This document shows positions 3,980-58,096 of a DNA stretch of 64,000 nucleotides, one piece after another; within the stretch, counting starts at the first letter, position 1, and every line of letters begins with the position of its first letter. The notes below the pieces were generated by a model, which did no database searches, had not been told where the DNA came from, and saw only the letters and a program-made list of their open reading frames with translations. Origin of the DNA: a virus; the IMG/VR virus record IMGVR_UViG_3300025011_000041, positions 1-64,000 of that record; one strand, given 5' to 3'. The translations under genes and the position numbers were made by a program.

Positions 3980-4996
3980 ATGGCAGAAATTGCAGACAAA
4001 CTCCCTACGGTTACAGAAGAACAATGGCAAAAACTTAATAAATTTAATAGAACAATCACTACAGAATTTCTAGAAGAATCAACTTCACTTAGTCCAAAAA
4101 CACTTCGTCAATATTTTTCCGCGCTCAGGATTTTCTTTTTTTGGGTTTATGAGCATTGTGATGATAAATCTCTATTAGAAATTAAAAGCAGAGATTTTCT
4201 AAAATATCAAAATTTCCTTGTAAGAAGGGGCATGTCATCTTCAGGAGTTAGATTAAAACGTGCAGCAATCAGTTCTCTAAATGGATATATAATTACATAT
4301 TACGAAGATGAACATCCTACCTTCAAAAACTTCATAACTAAGAAAATAACAGCACCTCCGTCTAATGACTTACATGTAAAACAACCAATGAATGCAGAAG
4401 AATGGGAATTACTTTTGAAAAATCTTGAAGACCGTGAACAATGGCAAAAATTGGCATATTTACATTTTACTTATTCGACAGGCTGTAGAAGAGCAGAGTC
4501 GAGACAGTTACTTAAAGAAGTAGTTGATTATCCTCCTATAATTAAGGAAAAGATTATTAAAAATGAAGATGGAACAGAAGAAATAAATACAATTACATTT
4601 TATACTACGTCTGAGATTCGCTGTAAAGGTAAAGGAGTTATTGGTAAAATTAGAAAATTACAATTCTCCAAAGAGGCTTTAGATGCAATTAATAAGTGGT
4701 TAGAAGTTAGAGGAAATGATGATTGCCCTTATGTGTTCGCAATTAAGAGAGATGGAAAATATCAGCAAGCAGGAGAAGGATTATTTAATGATTGGTGCAA
4801 GGATGATTTTAGCAAAGTTATAAATAGAAGAGTACATCCTCACCAACTAAGAGAACAACGGGCTACGAACCTTGTAATTCATGAAGGGAAAAATATAAAA
4901 TCTGTGCAGGCTTTACTAGGCCATGTCAGCTCGGCAACTAGTGAGATTTATGTGATTAGAGATAATTCAGACGATGTTGAAGATGCATTTAGTTAA
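3980..4996 (+). CDS. Tyrosine recombinase / integrase
   Basis: The start is ATG 3980 after AAAGGAAGTG; an upstream in-frame ATG at 3899 overlaps the nuclease remnant and has no ribosome site. The N-terminal part (about 20-120) is the SAM-like core-binding domain. The catalytic domain shows all expected elements: STGCRRAESR (first Arg, near 170), VHPHQLREQR (H-x-L-R, near 287), LLGH (His near 315) and SEIYV (nucleophile Tyr near 323). The 339-aa length is normal. It probably acts in integration or dimer resolution. The 270-bp gap after it contains the terminator at 5137; no attachment site is identifiable without the host sequence. Confidence 0.85.
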   Translation: MAEIADKLPTVTEEQWQKLNKFNRTITTEFLEESTSLSPKTLRQYFSALRIFFFWVYEHCDDKSLLEIKSRDFLKYQNFLVRRGMSSSGVRLKRAAISSLNGYIITYYEDEHPTFKNFITKKITAPPSNDLHVKQPMNAEEWELLLKNLEDREQWQKLAYLHFTYSTGCRRAESRQLLKEVVDYPPIIKEKIIKNEDGTEEINTITFYTTSEIRCKGKGVIGKIRKLQFSKEALDAINKWLEVRGNDDCPYVFAIKRDGKYQQAGEGLFNDWCKDDFSKVINRRVHPHQLREQRATNLVIHEGKNIKSVQALLGHVSSATSEIYVIRDNSDDVEDAFS

Positions 4997-9746: not shown

Positions 9747-10058
9747 GTGAAGATAGTTAAAACATTGAGAACTAAAACTTCCAAAATTAAATGTAGATGT
9801 GGCAAATCCAGAGTAAAATCTAAAGTAAAAACAAAATTATGGAGAGGAAAGGTGAATAAAATGAGTGTAGTAATAGAAAACCATACAACCTTAGCACCCA
9901 TAGCAATAATTAAACACAAATCTACATCATTTTTTGAAATGATATTTGATAGTAAAAAACGTCAAGAAACTTATGAATATAATGACAAAAATTACGAAGA
10001 AACAGAAGATGAAAAAGAGATTTTTAGAATTATGTCTTCTAGAAGGAGAAATAGATAA
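9747..10058 (+). CDS. Gene upstream of MazF-like toxin; possible antitoxin
   Basis: The frame starts at GTG 9747 (after GAAAGAGGAATGCG, giving 103 aa) or at ATG 9861 (after GGAAAGGTG, giving 66 aa); both have plausible ribosome sites. A -10 TATAAT lies at 9704. The N-terminal 38 residues are very basic with CRC, while the C-terminal part is acidic (NYEETEDEKEIF). It overlaps the toxin start by one base (TAATG), the arrangement expected of an antitoxin, but no MazE or ribbon-helix-helix fold is obvious. Confidence 0.5.
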   Translation: MKIVKTLRTKTSKIKCRCGKSRVKSKVKTKLWRGKVNKMSVVIENHTTLAPIAIIKHKSTSFFEMIFDSKKRQETYEYNDKNYEETEDEKEIFRIMSSRRRNR

Positions 10059-10543
10059 TGGCATGTCCTAAATATCCTAAAGAACCAACTCAAATTCAAA
10101 TAGAACATACTGAAAAGGGTTGTATTCATTGGTTTGATTTTGAAGACAGCGATCCTAAAATTAGGTCGCAAAAAGCGAGACCATATATTATCATTAGTAG
10201 AAATAATCCAAAATCAGGAAGAATTATCATTTGTCCTATTTCTGATATAAAAAATTATTATGAGAGAGAAACTACTAAGTTAAAATATCCTTATCACGCT
10301 TCATTATTTAAAAAAGATTATCATTTTTTAGAAAAAGACAGTGCTGTGCTTTTAGATCAAGTTTCTACGATTTCTAAAGATGAATTATGTGAAGAGTGGT
10401 ATTTAGGAAAAATAACAGATTGTTTTGTGATTGATATGGCATTAGCATATAATTATGATATGTTTGAATCGATTAGTCAGGCTTATACTGAATTGATTAA
10501 TCAATTGCCTAAATCTCATATGTCTGGATTTTCAAGACAATAG
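10058..10543 (+). CDS. MazF/PemK-family toxin-like endoribonuclease
   Basis: The 161-aa protein has the PemK/MazF pattern: a G-x-I-x-W start (GCIHWFDFED), the RPYIIISRNNP strand, a RIIICPISD segment, and the diagnostic KDSAVLLDQVSTISKDEL near residue 95-112. MazF proteins cleave mRNA and, with an antitoxin, stabilise plasmids or block rival phages. It is longer than typical MazF (110-120 aa) because of an insertion in the middle and a C-terminal tail. The ATG overlaps the upstream gene and has AGAAGGAGAA upstream. On a phage-plasmid it may serve maintenance. Confidence 0.7.
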   Translation: MACPKYPKEPTQIQIEHTEKGCIHWFDFEDSDPKIRSQKARPYIIISRNNPKSGRIIICPISDIKNYYERETTKLKYPYHASLFKKDYHFLEKDSAVLLDQVSTISKDELCEEWYLGKITDCFVIDMALAYNYDMFESISQAYTELINQLPKSHMSGFSRQ

Positions 10544-10581
10544 TGTTTTTTATTTTATAATTTATAAGAAGGTTAATTTTT

Positions 10582-10611
10582 AAAGGACTCATAGAAATAT
10601 GTGTCTTTTTT
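10582..10611 (+). terminator. Terminator after MazF-like gene
   Basis: AAAGGACtCAT and ATGtGTCTTT form an imperfect stem followed by T residues. Confidence 0.5.
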
Positions 10612-10687
10612 ATTTGTGTAATTTATGGTTTTAATTTAATGTGATAGTTTTAGCAAATCATTGGACGCTTTGGTTTGCTATTAAATA

Positions 10688-10752
10688 AGCAACATCAGTT
10701 TAGCTGACTGTAGAAGGGAATACACTCCTTCCCTTCTTTTTGTTGCCTTTTT
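10688..10752 (+). terminator. Three-way-junction terminator-like element B
   Basis: Closing stem GCAACA (10689-10694) / TGTTGC (10741-10746) encloses hairpin TCAG/CTGA (10695-10698/10704-10707) and an 8-bp hairpin GAAGGGAA/TTCCCTTC (10713-10720/10729-10736), then CTTTTT. It has the same plan as the elements at 5137, 31434 and 43611 and lies 70 nt before the next gene. Confidence 0.6.
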
Positions 10753-10819
10753 ATAATGTTTTGGTTTGGAGTGTGTGGTTGGTATGGTTAGAAATATAAA
10801 ATTTTAAGGAGTGTTGAGT

Positions 10820-13582
10820 ATGAGTAATGTTGAGACAAAAGTTTGTAAGGTTTGTGGTAAAGAGAAACCAGTTGGTGAGTATCATTCAAGAGGTGGAGGA
10901 TACTACAGAACAACATGTAAGGTATGTATGGTGATTCAGAATAATAAATTAGAAGAGAATGACGTTTGGAAAATAGAAGAGTATAGAATTATAATTGATT
11001 CTTTATTAAATAGAAGAGTACAACATGTTAATGAAATTGTACCAATGTTACCAAATAAAACTTTAAAAGATGTTGTAATATTATTGAGTGAAAAACTTAA
11101 ACTTGGTAGTATACCATTGAAAGTTATACGACAATGTGATAATTGCGGAGGAGATATTGAGCAAAAACTTTATAAGTTTTTAGAAGATGGATTAAGATTT
11201 TGCTCTGTAAAATGTTCGACAGATCATAATAGAAAAAATAATTCATGGAGTCATAAACCAAAAGACACTCCTGATTGGATTGATAATATAGATGAATTTA
11301 TTACAAATTACAGAATATTAGGGAGAAAAGGGGCCTCTTTATTATACAGTAAACATACAAAAACTATTACATACTGGGCAGATAAATACAATATAACGAG
11401 TAGCATTGTAATTAATAGTTTATCTGAGTTTGAAGTAATACATATTTTTAATTTAGTATTAAATGGAAAATTGAAGTCATTTCCAAATGGATTTTCTAAA
11501 CATAAACAATACAAATATATTGTATTAAAGCATTTGTTTGATTCTATTCTTAATTGGGGATACCAAGATATATGTAACCAATTTGACAATAATATTTTAG
11601 AAGAATATAAACTTGATTCAATTATTAAAATTAAAGAATCAAAACAATTAATCATAGAAATATATTCTGAGTACAATATTAAACTTTGGGAATTTAAGAA
11701 ACATGTTAACTTTCCTTCTGCTTTCTGGAAAAATGAAAATAATATAAATGATGCTTTAGAGTGGTTGAAATATAAATTAAAACTAGATAAAAATATTATT
11801 AATGGAAGCGATTTGATAGACCATAATTTTAACCAATTATTATGCGATTATAATTTAGACGGTTTATGTATTATAGTATTTAATAGAGATTCAGAAAAAT
11901 TATTTTCCAAGATTTTTAATGAGGATATAAAAGAATCAAATATCATTGTATTGAATAAATGTTTAGAATGTGGAGAAACAAAAGATTTTACAAACGAATT
12001 TTTCCCTAAAGGTAATGTTTATAGTTTGTTTTACTTAAAAAACATATGTTTAGAATGTATGCAAAAACGGGAGAACAGAGACTTGTATAAAGAGAAAGGA
12101 ATAATATATAAAGAGATAACGGACATACCTCTTGAAAGGTGGTGGAAATACTTTTATGATGGTGAAATTACACAAATGCCAAAGCATTGTCATATACAAG
12201 AAAATTTTATTCAGATAGTAAGGTATATTGTTTTTGAAAAGATGGACTGTAAAACAAAAGATGAAATATGCAATAATGTAAATTGCCCTAATTTAAATCA
12301 ATATAAAATTCAAATTACACAAAGATTTGGTACTGTTTTAGAAACATTGCAAGCATGTTTTCCTGAATTTAATATTTCAGATGATGACATTGATAAATAT
12401 GATAATGATACTGCAATGAAAATTTTTGATGATTGGGTGAAAAGTGAGAATATAAGTGTAAAACAAATCCTAACTAGTTACGGAATAACTGGACTATTTA
12501 ATAGGGATATGATGAATTTATGGCAAAATAAGTATAGAAAATTCAATATGGCTCATATGGATTTACTTATATGGCTGTTTCAAATAAAAAATATCGTACA
12601 TCCCGATACTAAAACCCCTATTATAGATTTAGATTTTACAAATAAAACTGATGGATTTTGGGAAAGTAAAGACAATAGAATTAGAGCAATTAGGCATTAT
12701 TGTGAGAATCAATGTAAAGATAATATATTAAATTGTTTAGATTCATGGAAAAATGTTCAAGATTGGGTATTGAAATATTTTTCTAAGCAAAAGTTAAAAG
12801 AACTATATACTTTTGCAACATTTAAAATTGATACATATGATTTACTTGTCGAGGCATACTCTATAATAAAAGATAATAATTTACTTTTCGAATGGGAGTT
12901 GAGTAGAAATAATAAAACTTCTGTACATGATCTTTCTAGATTTTTAAGGGAATTTGTGATTTATAGAATGAATGATTTGGTCTTTGACATAAAGGATGAT
13001 TTACCAACATATTTAAATTTTACTTTTATGAATGAATTATATCCTAAATTTTGTGCCTATTTACAAAATAGTGGCACACGATTAAGAAAATTTACGTCAT
13101 TTTATGAATGGGCGTGTTTATCATATCCTGAATATAGTAAGGAGTGGACTCCAGAAGATTTTGGGTTATGTCTAGCATACGATGGAGTAAAATGTGATAG
13201 TAAACAAGAAATAATGGTGTACGAATCAATCAAAAGAGACTTAAATATTGATGGTATTTGTGCTATTGGCTCTAATCATTCAGGAAAATATACATATAAA
13301 TATAATGGTATAAATAAAATATGTCCCGATTTTGTCATTGATAATTATAAAGATATTGAATTAGTAAAACCAATAATTATTGAGTATTATGGTTTATATT
13401 TAAAAAATTATCAAGGTGAGTTAACTATGTTTAAAAATTACCAAGATAAAATAGTGTTGAAAAATAATTATTATAAATCTAGAGATGATATTATTTTTAT
13501 AGACTTATATCCATATGACTTGAAGAACAATTGTGAAGGTGTAAAAAATAAATTAATTGACGTATTATCAAAATTAAATTAA
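10820..13582 (+). CDS. Giant zinc-finger protein with C-terminal PD-(D/E)XK-like nuclease
   Basis: I start it at ATG 10820 (AAGGAG upstream), giving 920 aa. It carries several Cys-pair fingers: CKVCGK...CKVC (about 9-37), CDNCGG...CSVKC (about 110-131) and CLECGETKDF...CLEC (about 386-412). The first and third share the CxxCGxxK...F spacing common in phage HNH and nuclease accessory fingers. The last 110 residues (CDSKQEIMVYESI, PDFVIDNY, IIEYYGLYLKNYQ, RDDIIFIDLYP) look like a Vsr/PD-(D/E)XK nuclease. It sits alone ahead of the tail operon, so a homing endonuclease of unusual size is the best reading. The middle 400 residues are unassigned. Confidence 0.55.
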   Translation: MSNVETKVCKVCGKEKPVGEYHSRGGGYYRTTCKVCMVIQNNKLEENDVWKIEEYRIIIDSLLNRRVQHVNEIVPMLPNKTLKDVVILLSEKLKLGSIPLKVIRQCDNCGGDIEQKLYKFLEDGLRFCSVKCSTDHNRKNNSWSHKPKDTPDWIDNIDEFITNYRILGRKGASLLYSKHTKTITYWADKYNITSSIVINSLSEFEVIHIFNLVLNGKLKSFPNGFSKHKQYKYIVLKHLFDSILNWGYQDICNQFDNNILEEYKLDSIIKIKESKQLIIEIYSEYNIKLWEFKKHVNFPSAFWKNENNINDALEWLKYKLKLDKNIINGSDLIDHNFNQLLCDYNLDGLCIIVFNRDSEKLFSKIFNEDIKESNIIVLNKCLECGETKDFTNEFFPKGNVYSLFYLKNICLECMQKRENRDLYKEKGIIYKEITDIPLERWWKYFYDGEITQMPKHCHIQENFIQIVRYIVFEKMDCKTKDEICNNVNCPNLNQYKIQITQRFGTVLETLQACFPEFNISDDDIDKYDNDTAMKIFDDWVKSENISVKQILTSYGITGLFNRDMMNLWQNKYRKFNMAHMDLLIWLFQIKNIVHPDTKTPIIDLDFTNKTDGFWESKDNRIRAIRHYCENQCKDNILNCLDSWKNVQDWVLKYFSKQKLKELYTFATFKIDTYDLLVEAYSIIKDNNLLFEWELSRNNKTSVHDLSRFLREFVIYRMNDLVFDIKDDLPTYLNFTFMNELYPKFCAYLQNSGTRLRKFTSFYEWACLSYPEYSKEWTPEDFGLCLAYDGVKCDSKQEIMVYESIKRDLNIDGICAIGSNHSGKYTYKYNGINKICPDFVIDNYKDIELVKPIIIEYYGLYLKNYQGELTMFKNYQDKIVLKNNYYKSRDDIIFIDLYPYDLKNNCEGVKNKLIDVLSKLN

Positions 13583-26893: not shown

Positions 26894-26939
26894 TTCTTTA
26901 GAGAACAAATGAATAAAAAGAAAGGAATTGGTACATACT

Positions 26940-27923
26940 ATGTCAATTTATAATGACTTACTCCAACAAGAAATAATAAACAATTTTCCGCAATTAAACA
27001 CAGAAGCAGAAATACATAGTTTATTCTCTGTAATATCAAAATATAACATTTCAATGACAACTTACACGGACGACTATACAGACTTATTAGAAAAGGCAGA
27101 ATTATTTTTAGCAGGTAAAAAATTAGAGAGACTAAGCGATTCTACTCTAAAAAGTTATAAGTTAGAATTATCTATTTTTGCAAAACATGTAAAGAAAAAA
27201 GCAGATGACATTACAACAAATGATATTAGAGTATATCTAAGCAAGTGGGATAAACTTAAAATTAGTTCTCTATCTAAAAAAATCTCCATATTAAAAACCT
27301 TCTTCAGTTGGTTAAGAAATGAAGATATTATTATAAAAGACAATGCTTGTATAATTAAAACACCTAAAAAAGAAAAACGTTTACCTAAATCACTAAATAT
27401 TGAGGAATTAGAACTAATAAGAGAATCTTGTGTAACTCTTAGAGAAAAGACTATGGTAAATATCATGTATGCTACAGGGTGTAGACTTCAAGAAATATAC
27501 AATATTAATAGATTTACAGATATTAATTGGGCGAATATGACAATACATATAATAGGCAAAGGAAATAAAGAAAGAATCGTTCATTTTGGATTTAAAGCAA
27601 AGTTTTATTTGAATAAATACTTAGCATCTAGAACAGATAATGATTCTGCTTTATTTATAACAGTTAGGAAACCATATAGAAAATTATCAATGAAAGGAAT
27701 ACAAAGAGAAATTAGAATTATTGCTTTGCGTTCAGGAATAACTAAACCATTACATCCACATGTTTTTCGTCATTCATTATGTAGTAATATGACTTCTAGC
27801 GGTGCTAATTTAAGTGTTATAAAAGAAATTATGGGACACAGTTCAGTTTCTACTACTATGGGATATATTGATGTAACAGGAGACCAGATTAATCAAACTT
27901 ATAAAAAGCATTTTAATCAATAA
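26940..27923 (+). CDS. Tyrosine recombinase (XerC/D-like)
   Basis: ATG 26940 is preceded by AAAGGAA; an in-frame TTG at 26928 abuts that ribosome site. The 327-aa protein has the SAM-like N-terminal domain (STLKSYKLELSIFAKHVKKK) and the catalytic set: YATGCRLQEIY (Arg near 181), LHPHVFRHSLCSNM (H-x-x-R near 275-278), IMGHSSVSTTMGYI (His near 300, Tyr near 309). It is closer to XerC/XerD in size and spacing than to the recombinase at 3980. Its place inside tail genes beside a GIY-YIG gene is unusual. It may resolve multimers or invert DNA; no inverted target pair is obvious nearby. Confidence 0.85.
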   Translation: MSIYNDLLQQEIINNFPQLNTEAEIHSLFSVISKYNISMTTYTDDYTDLLEKAELFLAGKKLERLSDSTLKSYKLELSIFAKHVKKKADDITTNDIRVYLSKWDKLKISSLSKKISILKTFFSWLRNEDIIIKDNACIIKTPKKEKRLPKSLNIEELELIRESCVTLREKTMVNIMYATGCRLQEIYNINRFTDINWANMTIHIIGKGNKERIVHFGFKAKFYLNKYLASRTDNDSALFITVRKPYRKLSMKGIQREIRIIALRSGITKPLHPHVFRHSLCSNMTSSGANLSVIKEIMGHSSVSTTMGYIDVTGDQINQTYKKHFNQ

Positions 27924-47362: not shown

Positions 47363-48904
47363 TTACTTAGTACACCAGTTTATGACAGTTTCATTAAAAT
47401 ACTTAACGCTCGATGTTCCATTGATAATTTTTCCACCTTCTTTAAGGACTGGTCTCCAACGCTTATCTGTTCTTAAAAAGAAATCATCTTTTGCTAATTT
47501 AGCAAGTTTAATCTTCCAATCTGGATCATCTTTTAAAACAGCACTCAATGCAATCAATGCTCCCATAGCGAGAGGTTCAATTGTGAAATACAACTTCTTT
47601 AAATTATTACGAGCTTCTAAATTAGAATTAGCCATGAATTGTGGAAATATTGATACAAGTTCATCAATATATTCTATTAACCAATTTTCAATATTTTTTT
47701 GCTCTAATTTAGTTTGAGGGTTATAATTTTTCCGTATTGCACTATTTAATACTCCAAAAGTACAAATATTAGGACTTGATGATTTTATGGTTGTGCTAAC
47801 TGTTTCAATCTTCCCTTTCCAATCTGAATCTGATTCAATTTTTCTTGTAATTTTATTTGAAAAATTAGTATTTCCTAAATAGCTAATTCTAGTAGGATTT
47901 ACTTTTAAAGAGTAATTGTTGTACTCAGCGAACATTTCACGCGCATCGTCATCACTAAGATTATTTACTTCGCAGTTGAATTGATATTCTCTAGGGTCTT
48001 CATATTGGTCTGGGTTCTTAACCCAAGCCGATTTCCATTTCACTGCAGCCCTAGCACGATGGCTGAAATCTACCCCTTGAAGATAACCATCACCAGAAAT
48101 ACTGTTTTCTTCAGGTATATATACAAGTTCAGATTCATTGTCTAGTGAATAGTTAAGGACAATCGTATTTCCATGAATTTTATCTTGTGTAAAAGCATTA
48201 AATATTTCCATTACGTGTTTTGGTGAAAAATTATCTTTTTCTTGTCCTGAAGATGATAATTTTGAACCACGTTGAATACTAGGAATAAATTTTATTATGG
48301 AATTTTCAAACCAAGAGGCAAGATCATAAGCTGATATTACAGTGACATATTTTTTTATTTCCCCTCTACGAGAACATGGAACAACCAAAGGGAACGACCA
48401 ACTTGTACTTTCTTTTAATTTTAAGTCATTTTGTTTTAATTCTTGTTTAAGTTTTTTCATTTCACGTTTTTTCGTTAACTCATCTTTTTTTCTTTGAGTT
48501 TCACTATATTCTTCATTAAATTCCTCTTTCGGAATTTGTTCCTTGTCGCCACCACCTGACTCCTCTAATTTAGTTTTTTCACTCAAAGTCATCATTGGGG
48601 GCATTTCCTCACCATCTCTGCTCCCTTTATCCCAAACCTTATCACTCTCACCTTCCATTTCCTTAACTAATTCCATTTCATGCTGTTGAATCATATCTGC
48701 ATCCTCATTCTCATCCAAAACTTCATTAAATCCAACAGCAACTTGACTTTGAGTTTCATTTACCATCCCCATCACCTCTTCCTTCACCTGATTAACCACA
48801 CCAATATCCATCTGAGAAAACCTTTCCTTATCCTTCTTCTTAACCATATCCTGTATGTCTCCTTCCATATTCATATTTCCACCTTTATCAAATTTAAAAA
48901 TCAT
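47363..48904 (-). CDS. DGQHR/DndB-like protein with acidic coiled-coil N-terminus
   Basis: The frame starts at ATG 48904 (AAAGGG upstream) or ATG 48874 (AAAGGTGG upstream). Residues 1-150 are charged and helical. From about 165 the protein resembles the DGQHR/DndB superfamily: SFPLVVPCSRRGEIKKYVTV, FIPSIQRGSKLSSS, a variant motif GDGYLQGVDFSHRARAAVKW in place of GQHR, then FNCEVNNLSDDDAREMFAEY. DndB family members act in DNA phosphorothioation and related systems and in plasmids of unknown role. It is the last gene of the translocation-like operon. No other dnd genes are present here, so DNA modification is not implied. Confidence 0.6.
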   Translation of the reverse strand: MIFKFDKGGNMNMEGDIQDMVKKKDKERFSQMDIGVVNQVKEEVMGMVNETQSQVAVGFNEVLDENEDADMIQQHEMELVKEMEGESDKVWDKGSRDGEEMPPMMTLSEKTKLEESGGGDKEQIPKEEFNEEYSETQRKKDELTKKREMKKLKQELKQNDLKLKESTSWSFPLVVPCSRRGEIKKYVTVISAYDLASWFENSIIKFIPSIQRGSKLSSSGQEKDNFSPKHVMEIFNAFTQDKIHGNTIVLNYSLDNESELVYIPEENSISGDGYLQGVDFSHRARAAVKWKSAWVKNPDQYEDPREYQFNCEVNNLSDDDAREMFAEYNNYSLKVNPTRISYLGNTNFSNKITRKIESDSDWKGKIETVSTTIKSSSPNICTFGVLNSAIRKNYNPQTKLEQKNIENWLIEYIDELVSIFPQFMANSNLEARNNLKKLYFTIEPLAMGALIALSAVLKDDPDWKIKLAKLAKDDFFLRTDKRWRPVLKEGGKIINGTSSVKYFNETVINWCTK

Positions 48905-49020
48905 ACAAAATCAACCCTTTCACACTATTATAATCTATTTTATTAGTTTCGCAAGTTTTAATGCCAGTTTTTATTAAAATTTATTAAAAATAATCCTCAA
49001 AAAGAAAAGAGTGACATTCA

Positions 49021-49170
49021 TCACTCCATCTCATACAGAACATCTTCTAACTCCTCAATTACATTCTTTATAATTCTTACTTTTTCTTTTGAAATTTTAC
49101 CATGTTTATCAGTAGCCAATTGGAGAAAATTAATCGCTTGTTCAATAAATGTTCTGGAAGTTTCATCCAT
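49021..49170 (-). CDS. Small acidic helical protein (49 aa)
   Basis: Minus-strand ATG at 49170 follows CAAAGGAGTGG. The product MDETSRTFIEQAINFLQLAT then DKHGKISKEKVRIIKNVIEE LEDVLYEME is all-helical. It lies between the M23 and DGQHR genes and is probably cotranscribed. Function unknown. Confidence 0.6.
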   Translation of the reverse strand: MDETSRTFIEQAINFLQLATDKHGKISKEKVRIIKNVIEELEDVLYEME

Positions 49171-49190
49171 TAATATCCACTCCTTTGTTT

Positions 49191-49352
49191 TTAATCAATA
49201 ATAATTCCTTTCATTCTCAAATAAATTTCTTCTGTGTCCAAAATTAACTCAATAGTATCTCTTCTAATATGTGTTTCCTCGACTATAAAATCTATCAAAT
49301 CATCAATATCAATTTCTTGTTTAGTAAAATTGTCGATAATATTTTTAATCAT
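49191..49352 (-). CDS. Small acidic protein (53 aa)
   Basis: Minus-strand ATG at 49352, or TTG two codons earlier, follows AAAAGGAGTG. The product MIKNIIDNFTKQEIDIDDLI and so on is acidic and helical. It is adjacent to the 49-aa protein and the two may form a pair. No family known. Confidence 0.6.
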   Translation of the reverse strand: MIKNIIDNFTKQEIDIDDLIDFIVEETHIRRDTIELILDTEEIYLRMKGIIID

Positions 49353-49379
49353 TCCCAATATTATCACTCCTTTTATCTA

Positions 49380-49910
49380 TTACGACACAATGAATATGAT
49401 TAATATAATTAGTAAAATCGCTATGCTATAAATAAACAAGCGTCTAAATTTCCATAGTACAATAAATAATAATATCAACATTACAGAAAATAAAAATGGA
49501 CTAGAATTATTATGTTGCACTTGATTCAATACATAAGGAGCCGGATCTACAAGAATTCCATTTGTGCTATAAACACTTAAATGTAAATGACTACCACTCG
49601 ACCTTCCAGATGGTTGTATTTTAGGATCACCACCCGACATTCCAATAATATCCCCTTTATGGACTATATCCCCTATTTTTGCTTTGAATGAAGATAAGTG
49701 TCCATAGACAATAATTTCGCCTTCAGCAGTCTTGTAACGTATGTTGTTGCCTAGTATTTCATTGGTTGATACTCCTATAATAACTCCATCTGAAATTGCC
49801 TCTAATGGTGTATTCTGTGGCAGGGCATAGTCAATTCCTGTGTGACCATTTGGATGCATATTATCAATTTCATTCCAGTCAGAAGTAATTGGATAATCAG
49901 TAATTGCCAT
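49380..49910 (-). CDS. Membrane-anchored M23 (LytM-type) peptidase
   Basis: ATG at 49910 follows AAGGAGGTGAT. Residues 1-125 form an M23 metallopeptidase domain with the zinc motifs HTGIDYA (H-x-x-x-D near 23-27) and GSHLHLSV (H-x-H near 108-110). Residues about 138-176 are two transmembrane helices (FLFSVMLILLFIVLWKF; LFIYSIAILLIILIIFIV). It has no signal peptide, so the catalytic N-terminus topology is odd. In T4SS-like systems a peptidoglycan hydrolase opens the wall locally; the ATPase gene starts upstream of it in the same operon. Confidence 0.75.
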   Translation of the reverse strand: MAITDYPITSDWNEIDNMHPNGHTGIDYALPQNTPLEAISDGVIIGVSTNEILGNNIRYKTAEGEIIVYGHLSSFKAKIGDIVHKGDIIGMSGGDPKIQPSGRSSGSHLHLSVYSTNGILVDPAPYVLNQVQHNNSSPFLFSVMLILLFIVLWKFRRLFIYSIAILLIILIIFIVS

Positions 49911-49922
49911 AATATCACCTCC

Positions 49923-52298
49923 TTATTCTTCAAAAGGAGTTCCATATCTTTTGCTGCATTCTAAATCTAAATGACTCCTATCATATTTCTTAAATCTCTT
50001 TTCTATTAAATCAGGGGCTTTAGTGGTAAACACAGAATATTGTCTATCATAGTTCACAATGTTAATACTATGATATTTTTTAGTAGTAAGAGCTTCTTCG
50101 ATTGTCACTTCTCCTTCTGCTAATTCTTGTTCAAGCATCTTATAATTTTCCTTTGTTGTTTTAAATAACATAAATGATGCGCCTGAACTTTTAATAGCAG
50201 GAAGCAAAGATTTTAAATCTGTGAGCATATGATTTGTAAAAACATAAGAAAGGCCAAATTTAGCTGATTCCCTACAAGTTGATCTTAACATATTACACAC
50301 CTCTGGAAACGAATGCACTTCATCTAAAATACAATGTGTTACTCTTGGTTCTTCTTGCTCACCTCTACTTAACATCGAAAGCCATATCTTACTATAAATG
50401 AAGGTCACAAGGGGTCTTAAACTTCTTCTATCAAATTTTAAATCTGGCATTTTAATAAGCACACAATAACCATTTTCACTCCAATATTTAAAATCTATTT
50501 CTGGATTAGGTTTGACAGATAATAATTGTTCCATAATATAATCATTAAGCAAAATAGAATATCTGTCTGAAATCCCAGAAACTAAACTATAGTTTGTCCC
50601 ATTAGTTTTATGGTCATCTAATCTTCTTAACTCTTGAACAATTAAATTTGTTTCACATAATCCTGATTTTGCAATAAACTTGTCCCTAATTTCTTTCTCT
50701 TGTAAAACATCTAAAATATCTTTTAAATTTGTTCCTTCTTGACTTAAAACGAGCTTAGAAGCAGCCGAAAGGAATTTCCTCATTCTTGGAGATAATTTAT
50801 CATCTGTAGTAGATCCTCCAACAGTTTCAATAAAAGATTCAAGATTAGCAGAAATTTGACTTGCAATCATCATTTTTTGTCTTGCACTATTTGATCTATC
50901 ATTTAATAATTCATTCCAACTCAAAGGAAGTAAATAATCAAGATTACCATAATCTAATACAATAATTTTTTCATGAAATTCAGGAGGTAAAAAGTCTCTT
51001 ATATCACTTGCTACAGAACACATTTTTATCGTGTCAATAACAAAAACCGAATGTCCTGCTTTCATTGCCTCAATAGCATAAGATTTAATATATGAACTTT
51101 TTCCGGTTCTTTGCAAACCAATAATAACTTTATGCTGTGTCGCCATTGCATAATCTTTTGTATTCCAAAATACAGGAATCACATTTCCTTTATAGGTGCT
51201 TTCTCCAATTATAATTTGGCCTTTCTGCAATTCTTTTGGAATATCAGTTTCAACAATATCAATTGAAGTTAAACTTTCCTTATAATCCATTTGCATTCTG
51301 CGGTCAGGAAGTCGGAATACATGTGCTAACTCCTTTGTGCTCCAAATTTGCTTGCTAAATTGCATTCCAAATTCTCTGTTTTTGCTTTTATGTTGCTTAA
51401 TTTTACCTAATTCAAGTTCTTGATCAGCGTCAAGTATTTTAAACACAGAATCAAAAATTCTTCCATAATATTTAGTTCTATATTCACTTGTACAATAAAC
51501 TCTAATTTGTACTTCATAACCATTGAAATTGATTTTTTGAGTTGTCATATGTGAATCTTTCCACTTGCCCATTTTATCCATTTGTTTTTGTACCTTTTCA
51601 TTTGTTTTAGTATCTACTCCCATCACATGGTCAAAAACATCTAGAAAACTCTCAGACAAATTAAAGAAACTATCCAGTACAAAATTAATTGGATTAGTGT
51701 GAACTATTAATTCTTCTCCTGACTTTTGTTTCACATTTGCTATTTTCCATTTTTCTTTCCATTTGCTTTCATGTAAAGGATAAATTCCAATTTGTAAAAG
51801 TACAGAATCGTCATCTTGAATATTATTTAGAACACTCATTATTCCATCTAATAAACCACCCTCCCTATAATCACTATTTAATGAATACATGAAATGTTTA
51901 GACTGTTGAAATTCACAATAATATTTGTTTATAAATTTAGAAAAATAATCAATCTCACATTTTTTTACTGAAGATGTTCTAAATATACGATCAATTTTAT
52001 TGACCAATACTTTGCTGTGTTTATTGGGAATAGCATAATTAAACTTTACTGAAGTTTTTCCTTCATATAAAATTTCATAATAAAATGGTGCAGGTTTACT
52101 GTATACTACAGATTTAGAAAGATGATCGAATTTAAGTTTATCTTCGGTAATTGCGGTCATTGTATTTAAGATTTCTTCAAAACTTTTGGACGACTCAATA
52201 TTAAATCTAGAAGGAGTAATAGTATATGTTTCGTATTCAAATGAATCTGTACGAAGTAATTCTTTACTTTTGATTTTGATTAGTGATTTTTGTTGCAT
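49923..52298 (-). CDS. VirB4/HerA-type ATPase of a translocation module
   Basis: ATG at 52298 follows AAAGGAGTGA. The 791-aa protein has an N-terminal part of about 380 residues, then an AAA/HerA-FtsK-type ATPase: Walker A VIIGLQRTGKSSYIKSY (about 386-402), Walker B THCILDEVHSF (about 652-662) and a TNHMLTDLKSL segment typical of T4SS ATPases. Such ATPases power protein or DNA transfer in conjugation, and related ones package DNA in membrane-containing viruses. Upstream genes encode three small membrane proteins; downstream is an M23 peptidase. No relaxase or coupling protein is visible in this window. Confidence 0.8.
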   Translation of the reverse strand: MQQKSLIKIKSKELLRTDSFEYETYTITPSRFNIESSKSFEEILNTMTAITEDKLKFDHLSKSVVYSKPAPFYYEILYEGKTSVKFNYAIPNKHSKVLVNKIDRIFRTSSVKKCEIDYFSKFINKYYCEFQQSKHFMYSLNSDYREGGLLDGIMSVLNNIQDDDSVLLQIGIYPLHESKWKEKWKIANVKQKSGEELIVHTNPINFVLDSFFNLSESFLDVFDHVMGVDTKTNEKVQKQMDKMGKWKDSHMTTQKINFNGYEVQIRVYCTSEYRTKYYGRIFDSVFKILDADQELELGKIKQHKSKNREFGMQFSKQIWSTKELAHVFRLPDRRMQMDYKESLTSIDIVETDIPKELQKGQIIIGESTYKGNVIPVFWNTKDYAMATQHKVIIGLQRTGKSSYIKSYAIEAMKAGHSVFVIDTIKMCSVASDIRDFLPPEFHEKIIVLDYGNLDYLLPLSWNELLNDRSNSARQKMMIASQISANLESFIETVGGSTTDDKLSPRMRKFLSAASKLVLSQEGTNLKDILDVLQEKEIRDKFIAKSGLCETNLIVQELRRLDDHKTNGTNYSLVSGISDRYSILLNDYIMEQLLSVKPNPEIDFKYWSENGYCVLIKMPDLKFDRRSLRPLVTFIYSKIWLSMLSRGEQEEPRVTHCILDEVHSFPEVCNMLRSTCRESAKFGLSYVFTNHMLTDLKSLLPAIKSSGASFMLFKTTKENYKMLEQELAEGEVTIEEALTTKKYHSINIVNYDRQYSVFTTKAPDLIEKRFKKYDRSHLDLECSKRYGTPFEE

Positions 52299-52312
52299 AG
52301 GGTTTCACTCCT

Positions 52313-52642
52313 TTATATGTGCAATATTACCTTCCAAAATAGTCTGAATATTGTATATATCATGATTGAAGTATAAACGTTTGAAAAGTCTGGAACTTCT
52401 CGTTTAAGAAATGATCTGTATCCTATATAAATTAAGTAAGTCATTAATATTACTCCTGCTAAATCCGGTAAATGCAGAGCCATATTTTGAGATTTAATTT
52501 TACCTGCATTTATGATGTTGTCTCCTACTTTGCCAAATCCTCTTTCAATTCCATTACTGATACCTCTTTCAATGAAATTGCTTTCTGGAATTGTGTCAAA
52601 GTTTGGATCTGGTATAAATAAATCCCTCAAGAAACCTGCCAT
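52313..52642 (-). CDS. Small membrane protein of the translocation module (109 aa)
   Basis: ATG at 52642 follows ATAGGAGGTT. The N-terminal half (FLRDLFIPDPNFDTIPESNF; GIERGFGKVGDNIINAGKIK) is soluble and amphipathic. Two transmembrane helices follow (LAGVILMTYLIYIGYRSFL; YTSIMIYTIFRLFWKVILHI). It is a candidate channel component encoded 14 bp before the ATPase. Confidence 0.65.
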   Translation of the reverse strand: MAGFLRDLFIPDPNFDTIPESNFIERGISNGIERGFGKVGDNIINAGKIKSQNMALHLPDLAGVILMTYLIYIGYRSFLKREVPDFSNVYTSIMIYTIFRLFWKVILHI

Positions 52643-52654
52643 AATTAGAACCTC

Positions 52655-52879
52655 CTATTTTACCTTGTCGATAACTTTGTCGATGAAATTTACAATAACA
52701 AATGCTCCTTTAACTAACATATAGGCAAAGATATAACCCTTTAATTTATCAATAAGCATTTGGAAATCAGGTCTACGGAACATTGTGTAACCGAGGCCAC
52801 ATAAACTATACACGAACATTATGACCGCTATCTCTACAAGATAAGGAAATATAGATGTTCTAAATGCTTCAACAAGCAT
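52655..52879 (-). CDS. Small membrane protein (74 aa)
   Basis: ATG at 52879 follows AAAAGGAGGTAGT. Two transmembrane helices (IFPYLVEIAVIMFVYSLCGL; GYIFAYMLVKGAFVIVNFID) flank a short loop with RRPD. It lies between the 36-aa and 109-aa membrane proteins, in the same operon. Confidence 0.65.
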   Translation of the reverse strand: MLVEAFRTSIFPYLVEIAVIMFVYSLCGLGYTMFRRPDFQMLIDKLKGYIFAYMLVKGAFVIVNFIDKVIDKVK

Positions 52880-52885
52880 GAGTTA

Positions 52886-52996
52886 CTACCTCCTTTTGAA
52901 CTTATAAATCTTAATACCTAATTTAACAAGCGTTACTGATATCATAGCTAATAATGCGTATGAAGCAATATTTAATAAAGTTTCTAAAATCTTCAT
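52886..52996 (-). CDS. Single-pass membrane peptide (36 aa)
   Basis: ATG at 52996 follows GGAAAGGAAGATT. The product MKILETLLNIASYALLAMIS VTLVKLGIKIYKFKRR is one transmembrane helix with a basic end, resembling a pilin-like or small coat peptide in size. It is the first gene of the module; its stop overlaps the ribosome site of the next gene. Confidence 0.6.
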   Translation of the reverse strand: MKILETLLNIASYALLAMISVTLVKLGIKIYKFKRR

Positions 52997-53119: not shown

Positions 53120-53212
53120 ATGATTTTAGGAGCAGGATTAGTTTTAACAGGTTTAGTAGGGTTTGGATATTCAATAATTCAGATAGTAAATATTGGCAGT
53201 GGATTATTTTAA
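53120..53212 (+). CDS. 30-aa hydrophobic peptide
   Basis: ATG 53120 follows a perfect TTAAGGAGGTAATTAAT ribosome site. The product MILGAGLVLTGLVGFGYSII QIVNIGSGLF is one membrane-spanning segment rich in glycine. It is on the opposite strand to both flanking operons and is followed by a structured 3' region and a terminator. A type I toxin or small membrane effector is possible. Confidence 0.5.
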   Translation: MILGAGLVLTGLVGFGYSIIQIVNIGSGLF

Positions 53213-53238: not shown

Positions 53239-53337
53239 GAGGGCATATTCATTTGAACATGAAGCATTTCATGGAAAGATGAAACCATAGCTGAAATATA
53301 CCCTCTCACCAAATCCCCTTATTGGGGATTATTTTTT
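53239..53337 (+). terminator. Structured 3' region and terminator of the peptide gene
   Basis: AGAGGGcATATT (53238-53249) pairs with AATATaCCCTCT (53295-53306) around an inner hairpin CATGAA/TTCATG (53258-53263/53268-53273). Then AATCCCC (53312-53318) pairs with GGGGATT (53324-53330) and ATTTTTTG follows. Only the last part is a terminator. Confidence 0.7.
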
Positions 53338-53375: not shown

Positions 53376-53576
53376 TCACTCAACAACCCCTTTCAATCTA
53401 AGAAAAACAAATTCAGCTTCCAATACCCTAGACACAGTTTTCCTATCAATATCTGTTAATTTAACAGTAAAATCAATTAATTCTTCTTCATTGATAAAAG
53501 GTGGTCTAATAATTGCCCTACCTACAAAAACACTATGAATTTGCTTTTGAACATCAGATATAAGTTGTTTAAGCAT
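53376..53576 (-). CDS. Hypothetical protein (66 aa)
   Basis: Minus-strand ATG at 53576 follows GGAGGAGATGAATT. The product MLKQLISDVQKQIHSVFVGR ... NEEELIDFTVKLTDIDRKTV SRVLEAEFVFLRLKGVVE has a helical DNA-binding look (DRKTVSRVLEAEFVFLRLKG) but no certain HTH family. It is last of a five-gene set of small proteins downstream of a winged-helix regulator. Confidence 0.55.
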   Translation of the reverse strand: MLKQLISDVQKQIHSVFVGRAIIRPPFINEEELIDFTVKLTDIDRKTVSRVLEAEFVFLRLKGVVE

Positions 53577-54583: not shown

Positions 54584-54833
54584 AAAGCATTATATCTTCA
54601 AGTTCATCCTTTTCTATCCTCCTTCTTTCAACCTTAATATGTTCTACTACAGTCTCTTTTATCCCCTCCTTAATTACAACCCCATCATTAATCAATTGCT
54701 TTTTAACCCATTTGCTAAAATTTCTAATCTCATTTGCTTTTTTGTAAAGTAATAATTCATCTTCATCATCAAGATTAAAATAAACACCTTTTCTCTTTAC
54801 TCTGCCTGTGAGTTCGCCAACTGATTTGCCCAT
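54582..54833 (-). CDS. ParR-like partition DNA-binding protein
   Basis: The 83-aa protein starts at 54833, overlapping the end of the actin gene by 37 nt. It has a ribbon-helix-helix-like N-terminus (RKGVYFNLDDEDELLLYKKA, NEIRNFSKWVKKQLINDG) and a charged tail (VERRRIEKDELED) suited to capping the actin filament. Position directly after the actin gene and size match ParR/Alp7R-type partners. It would bind a centromere, perhaps the GTATAC boxes at 55800. Confidence 0.7.
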   Translation of the reverse strand: MGKSVGELTGRVKRKGVYFNLDDEDELLLYKKANEIRNFSKWVKKQLINDGVVIKEGIKETVVEHIKVERRRIEKDELEDIML

Positions 54834-55648
54834 GCTTTCAGCCCCATTCGATGGTAGCCATTAGTATTACTAAAGACTGGATTAGTGATTATCTCAACAT
54901 TTTTGTAAAATTGCTTAAATAAATCACCAAATTTTAAAGCTCCTCCCCCAGTTAATAAAATTCTATCTGAATCTTCGTAATCCGTAAATTTTTCACTCAA
55001 CTCTGAGATGATTTTCTGTACATATTGCTTATCATCAATATGATTATCTTTCAGCTTAATACTGCCGAATTGGACAGTTCCACTATCTCTGGTTATAAAC
55101 TTAGTTTCCTTTATAGTGGCGTAGTTAACAGTGAGCGAACCAAGGTCAAGAATTCTCTTTTTACCAATTGCTAAACTTTCATCTTTGTATAAAGCATATT
55201 GAAAAGAAGCAACTGCTTCAGGAACTAATTTTAGATTATTAATACTAAATTTTTTACGTTCTCCGTTAATTTGAATGTCATAATCACCATATAATAAATC
55301 TTCTAATGCTTTCTTAGTTGTGGTATTAAAATCAATTATAGGAACACCAGTCACGATCAATAAATCAGATTCGTTCTCGACAATAGATAATCCTACGGCT
55401 GTAATAAATAATACACGAGTTTGATTGTGTATCTTTGATGCTGTATTCATAGATGTTGGAGCAAAAGATTCATCTTCTGCAAGTTGCCCTACAAAATGCT
55501 TTTCTTTGTCATTAATAATTACTTCATATTCTCCACCATCTGACATTTCTCTGTGATGCCAGTCTCCAACTATTGACTTAAATGATATACCATCAAGTAG
55601 TTTTGTTTCATTGCGACCAGTATCTACAGGAATGATTTGAAATGGCAT
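54797..55648 (-). CDS. ParM-like plasmid segregation actin
   Basis: I start it at ATG 55648 after TAGGAGGAATATTT (283 aa); the frame stays open upstream without a ribosome site. Actin-fold motifs are present: phosphate-1 IIPVDTGRNETKLLDG near residue 6-21, phosphate-2 ILDLGSLTVNYATI near 167-180, and adenosine RILLTGGGALKFGDLF near 230-245. Plasmid actins polymerise and push sister copies apart. Together with the ParR-like gene and nearby repeats this shows that the element is kept as a low-copy extrachromosomal replicon. It is shorter than E. coli ParM (320 aa). Confidence 0.8.
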   Translation of the reverse strand: MPFQIIPVDTGRNETKLLDGISFKSIVGDWHHREMSDGGEYEVIINDKEKHFVGQLAEDESFAPTSMNTASKIHNQTRVLFITAVGLSIVENESDLLIVTGVPIIDFNTTTKKALEDLLYGDYDIQINGERKKFSINNLKLVPEAVASFQYALYKDESLAIGKKRILDLGSLTVNYATIKETKFITRDSGTVQFGSIKLKDNHIDDKQYVQKIISELSEKFTDYEDSDRILLTGGGALKFGDLFKQFYKNVEIITNPVFSNTNGYHRMGLKAWANQLANSQAE

Positions 55649-55708
55649 AAATATTCCTCCTTCATATTTTACCCCACTATATAGTATGTGGTATTTAAAT
55701 TTATCTAG

Positions 55709-55737
55709 ATTATATCGCATTACCCCATACTTTACAA
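55709..55737 (-). promoter_or_regulatory. Promoter of the parM/parR operon
   Basis: Minus strand TTGTAA (55737-55732), 17 nt, TATAAT (55714-55709). Confidence 0.7.
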
Positions 55738-55896: not shown

Positions 55897-56715
55897 ATGA
55901 ATGAAAATGAAGAATCAAGAAAAACATCTCCATCACTTTCAATCCGTTTAGATAATGATGAAGGTAAAAACGAATGGGTATCACTTCAAAATCGCACAGG
56001 TTTGACATCAAAAGACTTATTGCTTGATGTAATAAGATTAAAGAAAGATCAATTGGAAGCAGAATCAGGTGGAATATCTGAATTAATTGTGCCAGAAGTT
56101 TTAAAAGTAAAAGAGCACACTGAACGTATAGTTCAAAGTTTCTTGGAACTTACAAGGGATAGAGCAGAACAAAAGAAATTCAATCAAGAAACAGTTCAAA
56201 CATTAACCGATGACTTTAAAACAACTTTAGATTCTCTAAGAGAAAGAATTGATATTGCTGAAAATAGCAAAAAGGATTCTGATAAACTCAGAAAAGAAGC
56301 AGAAGAAAATGCAGATAAATTATCCAAAAGAAATATTGAGTTAGAGGCCGGACACAATAACTCAAATTATTTAATAGAGACCTTAAGATTAGAAAATGAT
56401 GAGATAAGAAAAAGAATTGGGTCTGTAGATGAATTAGAATTTTCAATTGGTGAATTAGAAGATTCTAATAAATATTTACAACTTCAATTAAAGGAATCTG
56501 AGAATAAATCAGTGTTTTTAGAAGGGCAATTGGTTGAATCAAAGCAGGATAGATTGAAAGAGATTAGTGAATTAAGAGAGTCTTATACATTGGAATTAAA
56601 AGCATTAAGGCAAGAATTAAGGGAAGAATGTGATAATAGGATTAATGAGATGAAAAAGGAAAATGAGAGGTTAGAGATTAAGGAGAAAATATGGTTGCCA
56701 GTTAATGTAAGGTAA
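55897..56715 (+). CDS. KfrA-like coiled-coil DNA-binding protein
   Basis: ATG 55897 follows AAAGGAGGTAATA. The first 50 residues (SPSLSIRLDNDEGKNEWVSL...LTSKDLLLDVIRLKKDQLEA) look like a small DNA-binding domain. Residues about 60-265 form an almost continuous coiled coil (KLRKEAEENADKLSKRNIEL, LQLQLKESENKSVFLEGQLV). This is the plan of plasmid KfrA proteins, which form nucleoprotein scaffolds supporting partition. It is divergent from parM and its own leader carries the GTATAC boxes, suggesting autoregulation. Confidence 0.65.
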   Translation: MNENEESRKTSPSLSIRLDNDEGKNEWVSLQNRTGLTSKDLLLDVIRLKKDQLEAESGGISELIVPEVLKVKEHTERIVQSFLELTRDRAEQKKFNQETVQTLTDDFKTTLDSLRERIDIAENSKKDSDKLRKEAEENADKLSKRNIELEAGHNNSNYLIETLRLENDEIRKRIGSVDELEFSIGELEDSNKYLQLQLKESENKSVFLEGQLVESKQDRLKEISELRESYTLELKALRQELREECDNRINEMKKENERLEIKEKIWLPVNVR

Positions 56716-56734
56716 AATAGTTTTAAAATAGTAA

Positions 56735-56774
56735 AAGCACTATCCATTTGATTTTGGATAGTGCTTATTTTTTT
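56735..56774 (+). terminator. Terminator after KfrA-like gene
   Basis: Perfect 12-bp stem AAGCACTATCCA (56735-56746) / TGGATAGTGCTT (56755-56766), then ATTTTTTT. Confidence 0.85.
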
Positions 56775-56809
56775 CACTTTTATTATTGGGGTCTTATGAG
56801 TTATAACAT

Positions 56810-56861
56810 TTATCAACATGTGGATAACCTCTGGAAAATAAATCTGTCTACATGTTGATAA
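56810..56861. other. Candidate replication origin with DnaA boxes
   Basis: TTATCAACA (56810-56818), TGTGGATAA (56819-56827, exact consensus in reverse) and TGTTGATAA (56853-56861) are DnaA-box-like 9-mers arranged as an inverted repeat. The initiator-like gene at 57329 and the partition genes are next to it. No iterons of the initiator are obvious. Confidence 0.55.
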
Positions 56862-56883
56862 CTTAAAGGAGATTTGGCATACC

Positions 56884-56958
56884 ATGTCGAATATACAATA
56901 TCAGTCCAATAAAAAAAATCAAGACTACTCAGTTCTTGCAAAACCAAGTAGTCTCTAA
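56884..56958 (+). CDS. Possible 24-codon leader peptide
   Basis: ATG 56884 follows AAAGGAGATTTGG and the reading frame (MSNIQYQSNKKNQDYSVLAK PSSL) ends inside a small hairpin AGACTACT/AGTAGTCT (56922-56929/56947-56954). It could be a leader controlling downstream transcription, or chance. Confidence 0.3.
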   Translation: MSNIQYQSNKKNQDYSVLAKPSSL

Positions 56959-57064
56959 TCTAGCAATGTCCTCTCACCGACACGCTTAGACTTCTTAATT
57001 AAGATTATACCAAATACAAATTAAAATGCAATAGTTTTGTATAGGGGTAATTTAGAAGTAAGTC

Positions 57065-57106
57065 AAAAGTTAGTAGTTTGTGAAAACACATGCTACTAAC
57101 TTTTTT
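57065..57106 (+). terminator. Terminator between origin and initiator
   Basis: AAAAGTTAGTAG (57065-57076) pairs with CTACTAACTTTT (57093-57104), then TT. Confidence 0.8.
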
Positions 57107-57158
57107 ATTGGATAATCAGTCAAAGTATCTTAATAACTTAAAAAAGAACATGCAAAAA

Positions 57159-57205
57159 CCTCTTATGAAATGCCAGAGCGACCAACTTCAACATTTCATA
57201 AGAGG
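57159..57205. ncRNA. Perfect 14-bp hairpin upstream of the initiator, possible antisense RNA
   Basis: CCTCTTATGAAATG (57159-57172) pairs fully with CATTTCATAAGAGG (57192-57205) around a 19-nt loop. No T run follows, so it is not a plain terminator. A second imperfect hairpin (about 57277-57316) abuts the ribosome site of the initiator gene. This layout is common where antisense RNA or leader folding controls plasmid copy number. Confidence 0.45.
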
Positions 57206-57328
57206 CCCAAGAAGACTAGATGATTTTTCTATTAATGTTAGTATACTATGTTTTTAGAAAAAAGTCTATACCTCTTCTTAGCATTGCTATTGTCTTTTTT
57301 GACAAAATGCTGAAAGAAGGTTTTTATT

Positions 57329-58096
57329 ATGAGTATTAAAACATTGATCCCAGAAGAAGCCTGTATAGTAGTACAATTATCTGTTGTTAAAAGATTTGGT
57401 CAAGTCCCTGCTGAAATACTTAGTAGATTAGATTATTGGATGGATAGTTCGACAACGTATAAACAAAATGAATGGTGGGTTTATAAAACATATGAAAACT
57501 TTATGGAAGAGTTGGGAAAATCTGAATCAACAATCACAAGAGCATTAAATGTATTAGAGAAATGTGGAGTCCTTATTTCTAAAAAATTTAATAGTTTTAA
57601 AAATCATCATGTTAAATTTTATAGAATTGATTATGATTTATTTTATGAAATTATTGGAATACCAAATCCTAGAAAAGAAGAGAGAAAACCTAAATCTGTG
57701 GATAACTTAATTCAAAAAAGTCAAAATGAAGGAATCGGAAATATTCAAAATGAAGGAATCTATACAGATAATACTAATACAATTAATACTCTTTCTGTAT
57801 GTATGGATTCTCAGAAATATGAATTAGTAAAAGAAGAATTTTGGAATCAAGAAGAAGATTGGTCTATCATAAAAACTCTTGGCGATTCTCGGATAGACCC
57901 AGATTCTAGTTTCGCAATGACTATAACTAGTATAATGAGAGAGGTACAAGCAAATTCTGACCAATTGAAGGAAGCGCTTTCAATACTTTTTAATGCAAAA
58001 TTCCATATTAAAAATCCTTTTGGTTTTGTTAAGAAAGTTCTTAGAGATTTTGTTTCAGGCGAAAGTGCTTATTTTAATTATCATTATCAATCATGA
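57329..58096 (+). CDS. Replication-initiator-like winged-helix protein
   Basis: ATG 57329 follows TGAAAGAAGG. Residues about 10-105 form a winged helix (ACIVVQLSVVKRFGQVPAEI, WVYKTYENFMEELGKSESTI, TRALNVLEKCGVLISKKF) like the N-terminal domain of Bacillota plasmid initiators and phage replication proteins. A polar linker contains a short repeat (NEGIGN, NEGIYT). The C-terminal 75 residues are helical (TSIMREVQANSDQLKEALSI). It lies beside DnaA boxes and partition genes, so origin binding is likely. It could instead be a DnaD-like loader. Confidence 0.6.
   Translation: MSIKTLIPEEACIVVQLSVVKRFGQVPAEILSRLDYWMDSSTTYKQNEWWVYKTYENFMEELGKSESTITRALNVLEKCGVLISKKFNSFKNHHVKFYRIDYDLFYEIIGIPNPRKEERKPKSVDNLIQKSQNEGIGNIQNEGIYTDNTNTINTLSVCMDSQKYELVKEEFWNQEEDWSIIKTLGDSRIDPDSSFAMTITSIMREVQANSDQLKEALSILFNAKFHIKNPFGFVKKVLRDFVSGESAYFNYHYQS

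Follow-up and report, generated by a model that had tools for sequence, protein, structure and literature searches.

The closest described counterpart of the locus reported here comes from phage SPP1, for which a re-annotation in 2018 raised the possibility that gp31.1, gp31.2, and gp32 form a trans-membrane translocon, genes 31.2 and 32 being non-essential (PMC6316719). ParM, Replic_Relax, TrbC/VirB2, or FtsK proteins have also been noted in single phages, usually as plasmid maintenance functions or with no role assigned (PMC7685451, PMC9658697, PMC3853049, PMC3853048). Our locus lies on the minus strand of a 64-kb stretch (hereafter, the window) of the virus record IMGVR_UViG_3300025011_000041, a 65,440-bp contig without end repeats from a phage or phage-plasmid. 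Comparison of its sequence with those of other phages indicates that its core, probably positions 49380-52996, belongs, as a divergent version, to a gene module that has no name but recurs in phages infecting Bacillus and related bacteria. An earlier sequence-only reading of the window had stated that no named system has exactly this gene set; this is literally right, but the kind of system had already been noticed, as the SPP1 proposal shows.

All eight minus-strand open reading frames (ORFs) described in that reading were found, with the coordinates and lengths it gave. Its Walker motifs and M23 peptidase also stood; what probably does not hold of the claimed eight-gene operon is the membership of a DndB-like gene, discussed below. 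The core opens with a 36-amino-acid (aa) membrane protein with one hydrophobic helix (52886-52996), followed by a 74-aa membrane protein (52655-52879) that has a basic loop besides its two helices and is a candidate VirB2/pilin equivalent, and by a 109-aa membrane protein (52313-52642) that is hydrophobic in two C-terminal stretches and takes the position that other members give to a second membrane protein of the SPP1 gp31.2 type. Next come a 791-aa ATPase of the VirB4/HerA superfamily (49923-52298), belonging to the phrog_5156 family of unknown function, and a 176-aa M23 peptidase (49380-49910; PF01551, phrog_7767), whose catalytic domain is N-terminal and whose membrane helices are C-terminal. 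Downstream lie two small ORFs that may or may not belong to the unit.

SPP1 gp31.1-gp31.2-gp32, like the loci of GBK2 gp32 and 000TH010 gp47, combines an ATPase of the same phrog_5156 family with two small membrane proteins directly upstream. The window differs from this type in that a separate gene downstream of the ATPase encodes an M23 peptidase, active-looking from its sequence, that a 36-aa membrane protein is added, and that ParM is encoded nearby; the ATPases are only ~22% identical. The SPO1 27.9-27.3 and PJN02/BcoS-136 clusters share ParM, small membrane proteins, and the ATPase with the window, and BcoS-136 has the M23 as well, but in these clusters the ATPase is immediately followed by Replic_Relax (MobC superfamily), which the window lacks. 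With type IV secretion systems (R388 Trw, VirB/D4) the window shares an ATPase whose fold is closest to TrwK/VirB4 and a wall hydrolase, and its relatives add VirB2-like pilins; in contrast to those systems, VirB6, a relaxase, and a separate coupling protein were not found in the window, and the VirB4 N-terminal sequence domain was undetected. The same families of small membrane protein, M23, and ATPase are also encoded by the Alicyclobacillus dauci plasmid NZ_CP104066.1, a replicon typed as non-mobilizable, where the M23 gene is upstream of the ATPase rather than downstream; this plasmid has two copies of the M23 and ATPase set, ~49 kb apart, with identical match scores. The archaeal Ced/Ted DNA import systems resemble the locus by description, with a few small two-helix membrane proteins and a VirB4/HerA-type ATPase, but they include the larger, VirB6-like CedA and belong to other hosts. 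Plasmid pGIAK1, which has Replic_Relax, VirD4, VirB4, and hydrolase genes, has been reported to be self-mobilizable (PMC3756968).

The ATPase matches phrog_5156 over its full length (E 2e-121, residues 10-790; PHROGs), Pfam matches being only weak, and tblastn with this protein found 63 phage records at ~23% identity, among them SPO1 gp27.4, 000TH010, D6E, GBK2, Ray17, and LysYB1. Further members of the module came from a second query and from IMG/VR. We examined 35 records bearing the module or a variant with an FtsK motor; phrog_5156 homologues were present in 33 of them, and the other two, the Bastillevirinae Grass and Goe8, have FtsK motors whose phrog_5156 matches are weak and local only. 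The neighbourhoods share one plan consisting of a ParM actin, a ribbon-helix-helix-like protein, small membrane proteins, and the ATPase, to which an M23 protein with a membrane tail is often added, and Replic_Relax and a tyrosine recombinase sometimes. Wherever the accessory genes occurred in these records they were close to the motor: the actin within 5 kb (18/18), M23 within 2.6 kb (14/14), and Replic_Relax within 0.9 kb (9/9). With a single value entered for each lineage, the probability of such linkage arising by chance is ~1e-9 in the case of actin and again in that of M23, an estimate that is crude because lineages were grouped by hand. The window's own ParM/Alp-type actin-like gene (54797-55720, minus strand; PF17989 [ALP_N], E 4e-20), ~1.8 kb upstream of the first membrane gene and 2.9 kb away in the motor-distance test, was overlooked in the sequence-only reading; it recurs beside the module elsewhere and is likely a functional partner of the core. 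No match was obtained when bacterial genome contigs were scanned with single ATPase sequences or viral contigs with the Alicyclobacillus and 055SW001 ATPases. Two side observations concern relatives: consecutively numbered gp155 and gp156 of Bacillus phage G are both structural homologues of the ATPase, gp146 of this phage being a Replic_Relax homologue, and in phage MMB025 a GmrSD_N restriction-type gene lies directly downstream of the ATPase (9833-10903 of the contig, L013).

The main argument for the cargo comes from phages in which the motor has been exchanged. Grass and Goe8 carry an FtsK_SpoIIIE motor (E 3e-47) beside ParM and M23, and in 019DV002 the gene order is FtsK-Replic_Relax-pilin, the pilin being homologous (31% identity, ~E 1e-10) to the one that precedes the VirB4-type ATPase of 055SW001. 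Homologues of this pilin adjoin FtsK and Replic_Relax in 019DV002 and Glittering and are present in Novomoskovsk, where the protein is annotated TrbC/VIRB2. (A 141-aa gene upstream of FtsK in Glittering was considered as the pilin and ruled out by BLAST; the pilin comes after Replic_Relax.) By these sequence matches, FtsK/SpoIIIE takes the motor slot in Bastillevirinae and Andromedavirus-type phages, and because a dedicated DNA translocase thus replaces the VirB4-type motor in the same context, DNA is the probable cargo. Replic_Relax (PF13814) is assigned to the MobC relaxase superfamily in CONJscan (PMC5357655). The phage Replic_Relax proteins have a conserved PD...ExD pattern, and the structural model (predicted local distance difference test [pLDDT] score, 84.8) has a nuclease-like fold matching FokI, XisH, and other nucleases with modest scores.

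In the window ATPase, both Walker motifs are intact (Walker A, GLQRTGKS at residue 394; Walker B, CILDE), as the sequence-only reading had said. Its AlphaFold model, built from 24 sequences (pLDDT, 79.7), has the conjugative TrwK/VirB4 as its best match in the Protein Data Bank (PDB) (E 2.8e-14, 917 alignment columns), with TrwB, HerA, and DndH next; a PDB profile search by sequence returned only short P-loop or Walker-region matches. The size of the protein and the position of its Walker A motif fit a VirB4-like layout better than that of TrwB.

The module calls for one to three small membrane proteins directly upstream of the ATPase, and the window has three. In 055SW001, D6E, and TP-84 the protein in this position matches TrbC/VirB2 or T4SS_pilin (E 6.5e-6, 2.2e-5, and 5.8e-5, respectively), all below the curated cut-off. 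In profile comparison, the window's 74-aa protein matched the protein in the pilin position of PJN02/BcoS-136-type phages along its full length but weakly (pairwise E 0.0015; probability, 7 to 17%), which is suggestive of homology to pilins, and the 109-aa protein matched, very weakly (E 0.015), the membrane tail found in the M23/gp31.2 family, with which it shares an LPD-G stretch. The M23 peptidase (PF01551, E 4e-19) has intact catalytic motifs (HTGID at residue 23, HLH at 108) and, as had been claimed, a hydrophobic C terminus; no signal peptide was seen. In this protein and related ones alike, the M23 domain is at the extreme N terminus and the helices are only C-terminal. The second membrane protein of SPP1-like and PJN02-like phages is either an M23 domain plus membrane tail (221 to 255 aa) or the tail alone (107 to 120 aa), and M23 presence changes at least eight times on well-supported branches of the ATPase tree, in which long branches leave deep placements, including that of the window, unsure. 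The constant part in these two groups looks like the membrane tail rather than the peptidase.

Taken together, these comparisons lead us to favor, with moderate confidence, the reading that the core is a phage-borne membrane DNA translocon of a minimal, type-IV-secretion-like kind. The actin partition system would carry the element's DNA to the membrane, a channel would be assembled from small VirB2-like proteins, the VirB4-type ATPase would assemble or power it, the membrane M23 enzyme would open the peptidoglycan locally, and the DNA would then pass across the envelope, most likely into a neighbour cell as in conjugation. Comparison of sequences and structures supports the ATPase family and fold, the M23 active site, and the recurrent linkage to actin and M23, and comparison in relatives supports the VirB2-like pilins, the MobC-family protein with its nuclease fold, and the FtsK/SpoIIIE motor swap. 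For the window itself we infer that DNA is the cargo and that the small proteins stand in for pilins, and likewise which way transport runs and into which cell. Taken by itself, cell-to-cell transfer, with a neighbouring cell receiving the element's DNA through the translocon, seems to us possible but doubtful. The sequence-only reading, which had proposed a stripped-down conjugation or protein-delivery machine, a virion-related DNA ATPase, or a defence or exclusion system, is thus supported in part, the conjugation-like machine being the best supported of the three through the TrwK/VirB4 fold match and the pilins and MobC-family neighbour of the relatives. The gene set is not always accompanied by a full conjugation operon; the relatives carry the small module and no full operon.

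Several observations weigh against the translocon reading. Global template modeling scores of the ATPase model are low (0.28 to 0.35; 0.28 to 0.31 to VirB4, the top TrwK/VirB4 match scoring 0.28), which may mean that the domain arrangement differs from that of VirB4 or that it is poorly predicted, and the VirB4 N-terminal domain PF03135 was detected by sequence in 0/9 records. Sequence profiles give only a weak link between pilins and the 74- and 109-aa proteins. None of the four relaxase families tested by name, Replic_Relax (PF13814), Relaxase (PF03432), Rep_trans (PF02486), and Mob_Pre (PF01076), was matched in the 65,440-bp record, which also gave no TrbL/VirB6 match, and the window has no large multi-helix VirB6-like ORF; the earlier claim that a large VirB6-like protein and, as far as these four families go, a relaxase are missing from the window is thereby borne out. 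These absences are not firm because the record may be a fragment. Because the searches for a relaxase, for VirB6, and for the N-terminal sequence domain of VirB4 came back empty, we do not file the locus as a conjugation system. Transport or transfer is a prediction for every member of the module, and any role of the module would be conditional because SPP1 genes 31.2 and 32 are dispensable in the laboratory.

Beyond the core, the two downstream ORFs encode a 58-aa protein (49191-49367, minus strand) and, last before a hairpin, a 49-aa acidic protein (49021-49170, minus strand), and no family was recognised for either in Pfam or PHROGs. The 58-aa protein is a paralogue (42% identity over 38 aa; pairwise E 4e-11) of a 66-aa protein on the other side of the core (53376-53576, minus strand), which is conserved with the unit in L002, an IMG/VR contig related to the window, and may be accessory or regulatory. 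Between the 49-aa ORF and the DndB-like gene lie a terminator-like hairpin (49027-49008), which closes the core unit, and a promoter-like site (48954-48927), both only pattern matches. The DndB/DGQHR-like protein itself (513 aa; 47363-48904, minus strand) matches DndB (PF14072, E 2.4e-14) in its C-terminal part only, and DndB is present in just 1 of the 35 records. Because of the intervening hairpin and this count, we rejected it as a member of the unit, outside which it probably lies, contrary to the sequence-only reading. No DndA, DndC, DndD, or DndE gene was noticed among the annotated ORFs, no search having been aimed at them.

Between the core and the 66-aa gene, on the opposite strand, a 30-aa hydrophobic peptide with a strong ribosome-binding site (53120-53212, plus strand) is followed by a terminator-like hairpin (53312-53330, plus strand); from its sequence it is a possible small toxin or regulator. 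Farther upstream, the region 55897-58096 contains a gene for a 272-aa coiled-coil-like protein divergent from the actin gene, several hairpins, and then a DnaD-like replication protein, features suggestive of plasmid-type replication and partition. The record has phage tail and lysis genes, and tyrosine recombinases lie at 3899-4996 and at 26928-27923, the latter among tail genes. No terminase, portal, or major capsid protein was identified among the proteins scanned in the record, which may be incomplete.

Two of the alternatives to a translocon are, in our estimation, very improbable. Many conjugation parts are missing, as would be expected if the module were a decaying remnant of plasmid conjugation with no present function, but its catalytic motifs are still intact and it is kept in very divergent phages. 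Moreover, relative to L002, in which the 5' portion of the unit is present and its genes are ~92% identical in nucleotide sequence, the ratio of nonsynonymous to synonymous substitution rates (dN/dS) was 0.021 for the 36-aa protein, 0.000 for the 74-aa protein (100% amino acid identity at 92% nucleotide identity), 0.026 for the 109-aa protein, and 0.027 over the 323 aa of ATPase sequence available, compared with 0.156 for the 66-aa protein. Every core gene tested is under purifying selection, which is strong for the three small membrane genes, and because these values are 0.00 to 0.03, chance ORFs and decay in its simple form are ruled out for the tested genes. A virion function, in which the ATPase would be the phage's genome packaging or injection motor, draws on the P-loop translocase fold, on weak matches to A32-like packaging ATPases, and on the M23 domains known in tail proteins. 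Tailed phages such as SPP1, however, package by terminase (PMC6316719), the module is outside the structural genes in SPO1, GBK2, Ray17, and 000TH010, and SPP1 31.2 and 32 are non-essential; gene position in relatives and SPP1 genetics led us to reject a virion packaging ATPase, one of the three options of the earlier reading.

Hosts of the phages with the VirB4-type ATPase, where identifiable and cultured, are spore formers except for one Microcystis phage, and this bears on the proposal that the module is a sporulation segregation pump, in which ParM would place the DNA at the pole and a VirB4- or FtsK/SpoIIIE-type motor would drive it across the septum into the forespore, so that the phage survives in the spore. 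Records with an SPO1-like (Herelleviridae-type) portal include 342 from Staphylococcus, 69 from Enterococcus, 54 from Listeria, and 26 from Lactobacillus, yet none of these genera appears among the VirB4-type ATPase matches. FtsK/SpoIIIE in the motor slot of Bastillevirinae and Andromedavirus-type phages points the same way, and the papers on Grass and Glittering mention what SpoIIIE does in the forespore, with no phage role assigned to the protein (PMC3853049, PMC3853048). We nevertheless consider this explanation unlikely: a septal pump would not be expected to have VirB2-like pilins, an M23 hydrolase, or a MobC-family nuclease, homologues of the FtsK-type pilin occur in two phages listed under Staphylococcus aureus, the Microcystis phage is itself among the ATPase matches, and the host bias, which fits a sporulation role, could be due to ancestry. 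It is quite improbable, in our view, that the locus is a protein-export, superinfection-exclusion, or defence device whose ATPase and membrane proteins would monitor, or act upon, the envelope or DNA entering the cell. VirB4/HerA ATPases do serve in defence too, a DndB-like gene adjoins the window's copy and a GmrSD_N gene that of MMB025, and the motor is weakly similar to mad8 (E 5e-11) and DndH, but DndB is not conserved with the module, and the partition actin, MobC-family proteins, and interchangeable FtsK motors indicate DNA movement rather than immunity. For the defence option of the sequence-only reading, what stands is this weak P-loop similarity to mad8 and DndH.

The wider module and its motor swap appear to be unreported in the open-access literature searched, where we found no description of the whole module (subscription papers and preprints being outside the search) and where remarks linking phages to conjugation were limited to SPP1, Izhevsk, Novomoskovsk, Grass, and Glittering. 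As a tentative generalization, which we regard as possible rather than probable, many tailed phages and phage-plasmids whose hosts are spore-forming Bacillota, including lytic phages, may carry a modular, conjugation-derived envelope DNA pump, made of pilin-like proteins, an exchangeable VirB4/FtsK motor, an optional M23 enzyme and MobC nuclease, and a partition actin, that moves genomes between cells or into forespores without virions. This hypothesis can be tested in standard B. subtilis phages, SPP1 gene 32 being already known to be dispensable. If the module does move DNA, well-known phages such as SPO1 and SPP1 would gain a second, virion-independent route for their genomes, conjugation machinery would be at work inside lytic phage biology, and the partition actins and SpoIIIE-like pumps of Bacillus phages, noted since 2013 without a known role, would be explained.

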